Shown: in pieces, positions 2,442 through 6,597 of the stretch
Numbering within the stretch: position 1 is the stretch's first letter
How the letters are laid out: every line of letters begins with the position of its first letter
Source: Methanoregulaceae archaeon
Lineage (GTDB): Archaea; Halobacteriota; Methanomicrobia; Methanomicrobiales; Methanospirillaceae
DNA length: 64,000 bases
Assembly (NCBI GenBank): GCA_015660965.1
Contig: JACTVG010000003.1
Location: 62,001-126,000, forward strand
Direction of reading: 5' to 3'
Notes under the pieces: generated by a model
Databases searched by the model: none
What the model saw: the letters and a program-made list of their open reading frames with translations, nothing else
What the model was told of the DNA's origin: nothing
Program-made: the position numbers and the translations under genes

Positions 2442-3653
2442 TTACGCACGTGAACGATAAGGAATCAATTTATCCATGATCGTATATATGGCACCGGACT
2501 CTAATATAACGATCACTTGAAGACGATCCGTTCCTCTAGTGCCCTGCAACGTGATCTCAGACAGTTGTTGGTCGAAATTAAGTTTCCCTTGGGTAACCGT
2601 ACCATCGGATCTTGTCAGGATCACCTGGTTGTCCTTAACAAATCCTTGCCCTGGACCACCACCGAATTTAACATTGATTTCAGCAGTGATGGAATTCTTT
2701 TCAACCTCAAGGTAAAGCTCGTTTCCTTTTGGTAATACTTGGGTCGGGGCAGTCGTTAGCGTCGCAGTATTTATTCTTGTATTCTGGCTTCGATAATCTA
2801 CAGTCATAGTATCTGAAGAATTCGGAAAAAGTAATCCCCCACCTCGCTCGTTTTGTGAGCTAGTGGGACTCTGGGACGGTGAAGCAATCATCGGGATGAT
2901 TAAATACAGTGCAATGAGCACAACAATCAGCATGCCTGTACCAACAAGCACCCGCCTCTTTTGCGAGAAGATTGATCGTGGTGAAGGCTCCTTAGGTGGG
3001 ACTGGCTTTGGTATTGAAACTGGCTGAACCGTCTTTTGTACTACTGGAGAGGGCACCACTGGTGATGATTCAAGAGCTGATGTTGAAGATACAGGAGCAC
3101 CGCATGCATCACAGAATTTTGCGTTTGGCGAAAACGGTGTCTTGCAGGCGGAGCAGACCGATGTTTCCCTGCTCTGTGCAAGAATATTCTCAATTGTTCC
3201 GGCAAGTTCATCAAAATGGTTTTCGAGAGGGGGTGTAACAGCATCAAGCCAATGACGGACACCGATGAGGTACTCCATTGACCGCGAGGGCTGGATATCT
3301 TCGATTCGGAATGGAACAATATTACGTCCTTTGTTTACGGCATTCGTTAATTCCCTGATAACATGGGGAGAGTTATTCGCATGCGACGAAAATATCAAAA
3401 CAACAATGCGACATTGTTCAATTGCTTTGACAATCGAATCCGGAAAATCGCTCCCAGGGGGTACATCTCGAGGAGCAATCCAGCACTTGATATTTCGGGA
3501 TTCAAGTTTGGCGCATATCGCATCTGCAACCGGCTTGTCTTTCTGTGCATAGCTGATGAATACGTCATTGCGGGGGGGATTAGATCGATTCAATTCATCA
3601 GAGATCAACATACAAGACTCAATAGTGGTTTTAACGTACTCTACGATATTCAC
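2442..3653 (-). CDS. Membrane-anchored TIR-domain protein with zinc ribbon
   Basis: A 403-residue protein with domains in this order. An N-terminal TIR domain (about 29-140) starts DVFISYAQKDK, continues with the CWIAPRDVPPG box, and has E101 in the SPHVIRELTNA helix, the position of the catalytic Glu in NAD-cleaving TIRs. A double-CxxC zinc ribbon (C167, C170, C181, C184) and a Pro-rich linker follow. One TM helix (about 235-257) and a beta-rich region of about 145 residues, presumably outside the cell, complete it. The start is GTG at 3653, with an ATG at 3611 possible. It lies 32 bp downstream of the PAS/RyR gene on the same strand, so the two are probably one operon. TIR domains can act as NADases or as scaffolds, and the sequence alone cannot decide which applies here. 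Confidence 0.85.
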   Translation of the reverse strand: MNIVEYVKTTIESCMLISDELNRSNPPRNDVFISYAQKDKPVADAICAKLESRNIKCWIAPRDVPPGSDFPDSIVKAIEQCRIVVLIFSSHANNSPHVIRELTNAVNKGRNIVPFRIEDIQPSRSMEYLIGVRHWLDAVTPPLENHFDELAGTIENILAQSRETSVCSACKTPFSPNAKFCDACGAPVSSTSALESSPVVPSPVVQKTVQPVSIPKPVPPKEPSPRSIFSQKRRVLVGTGMLIVVLIALYLIIPMIASPSQSPTSSQNERGGGLLFPNSSDTMTVDYRSQNTRINTATLTTAPTQVLPKGNELYLEVEKNSITAEINVKFGGGPGQGFVKDNQVILTRSDGTVTQGKLNFDQQLSEITLQGTRGTDRLQVIVILESGAIYTIMDKLIPYRSRA

Positions 3654-3685
3654 TGTTTTGGTGATCTTTGGACGGATATTTGTTA

Positions 3686-4774
3686 CTACGATCCTAACCG
3701 TACAATTTTCAGGTTCACTTTTGCAAGGATACCAGGCAATGTACGTATGGTATTTCGATCTTTTTCTTTCTGTAGTTCAGAGAGTTGTTCCCATGGCACC
3801 AGACAATCATGTGTTTTTGTTGCATGGTTTACGTTAGACCCGTATTTCCAGCCTTTGGATACTCGTTCATTCATCCATCGTTCATGTTCGTATCGTGCAA
3901 GTACTTCAATTTCATCGTTTGAGAATTTAAAAGGGGGTTCATTTTTTTCGGAAGAAAACCCGATTGCGCATTGGATCAAGTGTAATTTTCTCCAGATACC
4001 ATCGACCTGTTTGAGATTGGAGTCCTGTATGTTTCTGGGTAATTCGTTCCAGGGAAGCATCGAAGGATTTGTTTGAGGATTTATTCCCAACTTTTTCTGC
4101 TGTTCGAGATACTCTTCATGAATTGCCCGTGCCACGAGCTCGTGTGTTCCCTTGAAACCAACATCGTAATACTTTTTGAGGACGTTTCTAACCTTTTCTG
4201 ATTCGACCCACCCTTTATCGAGATTCGATATAAGATTGTCGATAAGTTTTGTTTGTTTAAGTATTTTTTCTTGATAGGACCCCTCTTCAAGAGTTACTAA
4301 TCCTGTTATTATTTGAATGGGGTTGCGAATTTGATCATTTAAGATTTGAAACTGCTCCATATTTTTTTCAATTTGTTCATAGGCATCTCGTTTCAAGCGC
4401 TCCATTTCGACTTGTTCGGTGATATCCAACCCAAATACAATGGCTCGTTGTATGTCTCCTTTTGTCTGTTTGTATGGTATTATATCAAATTTCAGGGTTT
4501 TTTTACCAGAATTTTGGATATCAATAGTGCAAATTAATCCTGTTTTTATTTCACGGCTTGTTATAGTCGTATGAATATCTTGTAAAAATTCATCCTTTTC
4601 GTCAGGGAATAAACACACGATGTTCTTTTCTCCGGTCTGAACGTTCGCTGATTTGAACAAATCCTCACACGCACGGTTTTCCCACACGATGGTTCCGTCG
4701 TCATTGACAAAAAAAAGGAGTGCTGGAAGCGTATTTAAGAGATTATTAAAATTTTCATCATTTTCTTCAATCAC
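3686..4774 (-). CDS. PAS domain protein with tandem RyR domains
   Basis: A 362-residue soluble protein. A PAS domain spans about 10-120 (LPALLFFVNDDGTIVWENRACEDLF). A helical segment at about 125-200 contains ILNDQIRNPIQIITGL, which looks like a histidine-kinase DHp helix with the His replaced by Asn. No ATPase domain follows. Two RyR-type repeats come next: about 206-270 (VARAIHEEYLEQQ...LPWNELP) and about 282-358 (LARYEHERWMNERVSKGWKYG...LVPWEQL...KEKDRNTIRTLP). The second is a very good match to the prokaryotic RyR domain (PF02026). The GTG start has a GAGGGATC ribosome site just upstream. It is the first gene of a probable two-gene operon with the TIR protein. The ligand is unknown. Confidence 0.85.
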   Translation of the reverse strand: MIEENDENFNNLLNTLPALLFFVNDDGTIVWENRACEDLFKSANVQTGEKNIVCLFPDEKDEFLQDIHTTITSREIKTGLICTIDIQNSGKKTLKFDIIPYKQTKGDIQRAIVFGLDITEQVEMERLKRDAYEQIEKNMEQFQILNDQIRNPIQIITGLVTLEEGSYQEKILKQTKLIDNLISNLDKGWVESEKVRNVLKKYYDVGFKGTHELVARAIHEEYLEQQKKLGINPQTNPSMLPWNELPRNIQDSNLKQVDGIWRKLHLIQCAIGFSSEKNEPPFKFSNDEIEVLARYEHERWMNERVSKGWKYGSNVNHATKTHDCLVPWEQLSELQKEKDRNTIRTLPGILAKVNLKIVRLGS

Positions 4775-5718: not shown

Positions 5719-6597
5719 TTATGATAATATAATATCAGTTGTTTCGATTTCGTGACTTGTGATATCTTTAGCAGTGACATTATAGGATCCTGGTGTCGTG
5801 ATGCTCAATACATGGAGAGAATGAATCCAATTATTATCGGAATTCACTGAACTGGTTCCGTGATACCATACAAAATTTCCTTTCACTGAATTGATAGTTA
5901 CTTCAATAGTTTTTCCGGCAGTGTCGGTACCAGAGACCGTTATTATATCTCCTACATGGAAAAGCCGGTCGCCAGAAACTGTCATAGTAACGGATCCTTT
6001 CTCTGCTTTCACAGTTGTCCGATCATAGGAGTTCTTAGTAATATCCATAACCGTTATCGTATAGGAACCGGGTTGAAGTGTATAATCCGTTGACCATTGG
6101 TAATTCCACGTTTCTAAGGAACAAATTCCAGAAGAAAGTAGGGTTCCACTCATGTTTTGATTGAGATTTGATATCAATTGGATTGTATCCCCGGTAATAC
6201 ATGTTCCTGAAAATGAGATGGGATTACCGATGAAAATAGAATTCTTATTCGTCTGAATCGTAACGTTTCCATCGCGTTGAGGTGGTAACTTCGTACTTGT
6301 TGGGACAGGTTGAGTAGTGACAATGGGTGTCGGAACTGGCGTTATTACCGATTTACTTTGAGAAGACGATGTTGGCATTCCAATAATAACTGCAGCAATT
6401 CCGGCTACGATAATAATGACTACAATGCCAATAATGATTTTTAATGCCGGGGTCCACTTTTTGTCCATTCCAACAGGTTTGATCTTGAATGTCCCAACTT
6501 TTGCCAGATCCGCTCCACAATGATTACAGAATTCGGCATCATCTGGATTTTCTTTACCACACGCGTTGCAGTACATAACAATTGAACGATTATCCAT
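5719..6597 (-). CDS. Zinc-ribbon membrane protein with Ig-like extracytoplasmic repeats
   Basis: A 292-residue protein. The N-terminal zinc ribbon (YCNACGKENPDDAEFCNHCGADL) is followed by a basic stretch and a TM helix at about 50-72 (IIIGIVVIIIVAGIAAVII). A Ser/Pro/Thr linker then leads to two similar beta-rich segments of about 85 residues (ITGDTIQLISNLNQNMSG and VSGTDTAGKTIEVTINSV). The second half repeats the pattern of the first (SISFSGTCITGD versus ITVSGTDTAGK; PGSYTITVMDITKNS versus PGSYNVTAKDITSHE), so it is an internal duplication. This layout is common in Methanomicrobiales and the function is unknown. The start could also be the internal ATG at 6576 (MYCNACG). Confidence 0.75.
   Translation of the reverse strand: MDNRSIVMYCNACGKENPDDAEFCNHCGADLAKVGTFKIKPVGMDKKWTPALKIIIGIVVIIIVAGIAAVIIGMPTSSSQSKSVITPVPTPIVTTQPVPTSTKLPPQRDGNVTIQTNKNSIFIGNPISFSGTCITGDTIQLISNLNQNMSGTLLSSGICSLETWNYQWSTDYTLQPGSYTITVMDITKNSYDRTTVKAEKGSVTMTVSGDRLFHVGDIITVSGTDTAGKTIEVTINSVKGNFVWYHGTSSVNSDNNWIHSLHVLSITTPGSYNVTAKDITSHEIETTDIILS

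Follow-up and report, generated by a model that had tools for sequence, protein, structure and literature searches.

A direct action of cyclic ADP-ribose (cADPR) on ryanodine receptors has long been disputed. In Thoeris, a ThsB protein with a TIR domain and a catalytic Glu is encoded adjacent to a partner for an ADPR-type ligand, namely ThsA (SIR2-SLOG) or an effector of the Macro-TM or caspase type. The TIR products 2'/3'cADPR are bound or cleaved by phage proteins with RyR domains (PMC13232231, preprint of May 2026), and binding occurs with nanomolar constants (PMC13232231). One of these phage proteins, the anti-Thoeris protein RyDEP, is a glycosidase with the catalytic dyad H75/D117 (PMC13232231). 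In animal ryanodine receptors, tandem RyR repeats form the Repeat12 (R12) fold with a nucleotide-binding pocket, and the R12 cleft is occupied by ATP and ADP (PMC12627627); binding of AMP-PCP or ADP alone to R12 was undetectable by ITC (PMC12627627). In PAS sensor histidine kinases, a PAS domain is followed by a DHp hairpin.

The locus described here has features of each of these systems. As in Thoeris, two adjacent genes encode a TIR protein with a catalytic Glu and a partner for a putative ADPR-type ligand, but the partner is a PAS-DHp-RyR tandem protein lacking SIR2, SLOG, Macro and caspase domains. The TIR protein scored 25 bits with the NCBIfam model ThcB4 (cut-off, 220) and matched the PADLOC model ThsB over the TIR part only (4.8e-06), and neither NCBIfam nor PADLOC contained a model matching the PAS-RyR partner. 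A described Thoeris type was rejected on the basis of the effector domains and these model scores. The RyR domain has the same H/W/H/D residues and spacing as RyDEP (PMC13232231), but it is host-encoded, fused to PAS and DHp, and located beside its own TIR gene. The RyR tandem corresponds to animal Repeat12, but the protein is soluble and has no channel, whereas relatives at three other loci (L045, L047 and L101) have a K+ pore. The order of PAS and DHp-like hairpin is that of sensor histidine kinases, but Asp147 replaces the His and the RyR tandem occupies the place of the HATPase. In the literature compared, outside which two likely sources remain, no paper on TIR-RyR gene pairs was found, and the RyDEP paper contains no mention of archaea or TrkA (PMC13232231).

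Gene layout and domain architecture

The window (the whole stretch of 64,000 nucleotides that was analysed) comes from a methanogenic archaeon, where it lies on contig 70 of an assembly of 2.43 Mb. The ORF list of the window contains two minus-strand ORFs separated by 32 bp, in agreement with the coordinates of the preliminary description (Table 1). The order with the RyR gene first is kept in adjacent orthologous pairs. The flanks of the pair in the window are unlike those elsewhere, the pair being adjoined in other genomes by unrelated genes (DUF460, AIR-synthase-like); because the flanks differ between genomes, the TIR/PAS-RyR pair itself was regarded as the unit. No third conserved gene beside the pair was found by comparison of the orthologous loci. 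Upstream of the pair in the window (5719-6597, minus strand), a further gene encodes a protein with a zinc ribbon, a TM helix and an outer domain, a layout like that of the TIR protein without TIR.

Table 1. Positions of the two genes and their predicted domains in the window
Feature	Position	Strand	Remarks
TIR - (zinc ribbon) - TM - outer beta domain protein	2442..3653	(-)	403 aa as called
C-terminal beta domain, aa 285-400, predicted extracellular	2454..2801	(-)	Kept in orthologues
Transmembrane helix, aa 235-253	2895..2951	(-)	Hydropathy peak 2.88
Zinc ribbon, aa 167-185	3099..3155	(-)	DZR E 8.6e-05, below cut-off
TIR domain, aa 31-149	3207..3563	(-)	TIR_2 7.5e-25; Foldseek TIR matches
Glu101, glutamate at catalytic position	3351..3353	(-)	Invariant in 9 orthologues
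Spacer between genes, 32 bp	3654..3685	(-)	Same strand, RyR gene first
PAS - DHp-like - RyR - RyR protein	3686..4774	(-)	362 aa
RyR repeat 2, aa 283-358, full ligand pocket	3701..3928	(-)	PF02026 2.2e-16 at aa 289-357
RyR repeat 1, aa ~207-282, divergent	3929..4156	(-)	Own conserved His219/Tyr222/Asn253
DHp-like helical hairpin, aa 119-191	4202..4420	(-)	Asp147 at His position, no HATPase
PAS domain, aa 13-122	4409..4738	(-)	PAS_4 2.3e-07

The TIR domain with E101 in place, noticed at first reading, was recovered by profile and by structure comparison; besides being invariant among the orthologues, this Glu is shared by 39 of the 40 TIR domains compared across the loci. The true start of the TIR protein is probably the ATG at codon 15, 14 codons further in, because the orthologues begin near there. 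The TM helix and outer beta domain proposed earlier are borne out by the hydropathy peak and by the beta strands of the structure model (pLDDT about 85-89 in the C-terminal domain), and each orthologue has one TM helix at the same place. The zinc ribbon stands as a weak match, and it is dispensable; it is missing from the orthologues L041, L048 and L052 and was rejected as an essential part. No Pfam match was obtained for the outer beta domain, and it was not named by Foldseek either, the matches of the TIR-protein model coming mostly from the TIR part; it may resemble archaeal pilin-type outer domains. The same domain was observed without TIR in many small single-TM proteins of Methanoregulaceae genomes, in several copies per genome. 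The pLDDT of the TIR-protein model was 58.9 overall and about 35-78 in the TIR part, and the NAD+ pocket was therefore judged by sequence only.

For the PAS-RyR protein, the AF2 model (pLDDT, 86.9; pTM, 0.51) leaves the domain arrangement uncertain, and its best PDB match was 9ls7_A, human RyR3 Repeat12 with AMP-PCP (Foldseek E 3.7e-08, 189 columns). Further Foldseek matches were to LOV kinases and to the PAS domains of NifL/FixL. The PAS domain and DHp-like helix of the preliminary description were found again by profile (PAS_4) and as a hairpin in the model, respectively. The claim of an Asn in place of the DHp His required correction. In the register of the H-box (S-H-E-L-R-T-P versus N-D-Q-I-R-N-P), the phospho-acceptor position is held by Asp147, which is invariant in the family. 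The HisKA match (0.016) is below cut-off, and with neither HATPase nor phospho-acceptor His the protein was rejected as a sensor histidine kinase. No recognisable output domain was found in it by domain search or in the model.

The two RyR-type repeats proposed from the sequence likewise agree with the model, in which the tandem matches the R12 fold over about 190 columns. The PF02026 profile check suggested beforehand gave 60.3 bits against a cut-off of 27.4, with repeat 2 alone detected; repeat 1 is below Pfam detection yet conserved in relatives. The repeats are not equivalent, the full pocket being present in repeat 2 alone.

Ligand pocket and partners of RyR domains

In an alignment with RyDEP gp78, the ligand residues H75/W78/H100/D117 correspond to H297/W300/H322/D339 of the PAS-RyR protein, and no gap falls between them. 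Profile comparison with RyDEP by hhalign gave 97.5% (E 8.8e-12), and the PW motif of repeat 1 was also covered. His297 was present in all 68 distinct RyR domains compared across the loci, Trp300 in 66, Asp339 in 56 and His322 in 41. All four residues are invariant in the PAS-RyR family, and channel-type RyRs are often without H322 or D339. The link between RyR and cADPR, taken in the preliminary description from animals, is backed by direct biochemistry on a phage protein (PMC13232231).

RyR domains in other loci are joined to a range of partners. The commonest fusion consists of two TM helices, a TrkA_N/RCK domain and the RyR tandem. In L045 (5645-7378), L047 (5174-7033) and L101 (4729-6453), a K+ channel pore (Ion_trans_2, TVGYGD filter) precedes TrkA_N/RCK and the RyR tandem, so that these proteins look like RyR-gated K+ channels; in L047, a TPR-TIR gene is located just upstream of the channel gene. 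A RelA/SpoT-type synthetase is fused to TPR and RyR in L083 (9972-12449), L100 (3964-6450) and L099 (3268-5757), loci that also contain TIR genes, and the proteins of L083 and L100 have a TRPM-type SLOG in addition. AAA or KAP NTPases are other partners. A SpoIIE phosphatase-RyR fusion is encoded in the genome of the window itself (L002, 553-2481, on the 3.5-kb contig 47) without a TIR there, and this contig may be an assembly contaminant. Since RyR is joined to many outputs, and several of these fusions lie in TIR loci, it behaves as an input domain. LSDAT_prok was found in one of 32 archaeal genomes; given this rarity, fusions of SLOG and RyR belong mainly to the bacteria in the present data.

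Two further loci were noted. In an Aminicenantes genome (L085, 8463-10115), a protein with TIR and a phosphofructokinase-like domain is encoded next to a TrkA_N-RyR gene. In L050 (genome G117, contig 1, 198500-218000), 20 kb contain several TIR genes (TIR-kinase, TIR-TPR and others) and a TrkA_N-RyR gene, as well as a stand-alone RyR protein of 102 aa that matches the whole PF02026 profile (3.8e-33).

Co-inheritance and neighbourhood of TIR and RyR genes

PF02026 is present in 24 of 149 related genomes. The PAS-RyR protein and the full-length TIR-TM-beta protein occur in exactly the same nine of the 149 (G000, G001, G003, G004, G005, G025, G032, G086 and G088, the PAS-RyR of G088 being a contig end that holds the RyR part only). 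The co-occurrence is thus nine of nine (Fisher 1.3e-14, without correction for relatedness), and eight of the genomes have the two genes side by side in a constant order, the exception being G005, where both are intact on different contigs (L034 and L060). Distances among the TIR proteins correlate with those among the RyR proteins (r 0.87, Mantel p 0.001), as would also be expected from shared vertical descent. The conservation of the pair, which the preliminary description had proposed to examine, is far beyond chance.

The association extends to other TIR and RyR proteins. In a set of 32 RyR-bearing archaeal genomes, each with 0 to 5 TIR genes, 22 of 43 RyR matches (some of them neighbouring repeats or genes) were less than 5 kb from a TIR, versus 0.30 expected, a roughly seventyfold excess to which 18 genomes contribute. 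A second set comprised 24 genomes, most of them from bacteria (Chloroflexota, Acidobacteria, Aminicenantes and others); here a TIR was less than 5 kb away from 13 of 36 RyR loci, versus 0.37 expected (about thirty-fivefold). These counts take the genomes as independent, and their significance is accordingly overstated. Such side-by-side TIR and RyR genes suggest that one makes a signal and the other binds it; at none of the loci were TIR and RyR found fused in a single polypeptide. A TIR within 5 kb is lacking for about half of all RyR genes, and RyR may therefore also read signals of other origin.

A proposed TIR-to-RyR signalling module

The two genes are read here, with moderate confidence, as one two-protein nucleotide signalling module of a Thoeris-like, TIR-to-RyR kind. 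This reading is based on the domain architectures, the R12 fold match, the identity of the RyDEP residues, the co-occurrence of the pair and the TIR-RyR neighbourhood. From these we infer a TIR activity, an RyR ligand, a topology, a role for PAS and an output partner. The membrane-anchored TIR, probably under control of the outer beta domain, would convert NAD+ to an ADP-ribose-type signal, which could be an isomer of cyclic ADPR or a related molecule. The soluble PAS-DHp-RyR-RyR protein would dimerise through the DHp hairpin and bind the signal in the cleft of its R12-type tandem via H297, W300, H322 and D339, acting as a dedicated receptor and switch for the TIR product, with PAS as a putative second input for redox or a metabolite. 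The earlier suggestion that the RyR repeats may read the TIR product is well supported by the retention of the pair and of all the RyDEP pocket residues, from which ligand binding appears plausible; the TIR also keeps its catalytic Glu and the TIR fold, and none of the three findings named beforehand as contrary to the suggestion was observed. A stress or antiviral role, also suggested earlier, is possible.

Alternatively, the PAS-RyR protein could be an off-switch, that is, a host RyDEP-like glycosidase or a sponge for the TIR product that stops or releases upon sensing by PAS. RyDEP is itself a glycosidase (PMC13232231), and its pocket, including the dyad H75/D117, is invariant in PAS-RyR proteins and often partly lost in channel-type RyRs; the lack of an output domain would also suit this role. 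However, well-conserved RyDEP homologues bound the ligand without cleavage (PMC13232231), so that the pocket residues do not imply catalysis. Moreover, RyR in the sister systems sits on effector-like domains, as suits a receptor, and the two-gene unit would be left with no effector if PAS-RyR were a mere eraser. An off-switch is hence considered rather unlikely. Within the module reading, a receptor or switch is somewhat preferred to a signal eraser because RyR is an input domain in the sister systems.

The RyR tandem could instead be a general sensor of ATP/ADP, its pairing with TIR serving joint control of NAD+ and energy with no messenger made and read. This idea was retained because R12 binds such nucleotides, weakly on its own (PMC12627627); human RyR3 Repeat12 has been crystallised with AMP-PCP and with ADP (PMC12627627), these structures head the PDB matches of the model, and a nearby TIR is lacking for many RyR genes. 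The absence of ITC-detectable binding of AMP-PCP or ADP alone (PMC12627627), set against the nanomolar affinity of phage RyR domains for 2'/3'cADPR (PMC13232231), speaks against it, as does a TIR neighbour in half of the cases, needless for a pure energy sensor, and we regard it as improbable.

A last alternative, that accessory or defence islands have merely brought two patchy genes together and the proteins have no joint function, is very improbable: both TIR and RyR are patchy accessory genes, and TIR is enriched in RyR-bearing relatives (22/24 versus 25/125 of the others), but the island-typical type I restriction specificity domain Methylase_S, about as numerous in the same archaeal genomes, lay within 5 kb of RyR in 0 of 51 matches, and neither the perfect subtype pairing, held even in G005 with the genes unlinked, nor the constant gene order would be expected from coincidence.

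The TIR-to-RyR module may be one member of a wider prokaryotic network, to which we give an even chance, in which TIR enzymes would make ADPR-type messengers and RyR domains would be their general receptors. The outputs of such a network would be K+ channels with a TVGYGD filter and RCK, (p)ppGpp synthetases, SpoIIE phosphatases, AAA/KAP NTPases and PAS switches. If the network is real, the animal axis of cADPR and ryanodine receptors would have a counterpart in prokaryotes, from which it may even derive. The pair in the window points to a class of receptors for TIR signals that is absent from the defence library searched, and it would explain the phage RyR domains, which may have been taken from such systems. 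It also offers a small system in which the question of cADPR and RyR could be tested with purified proteins.
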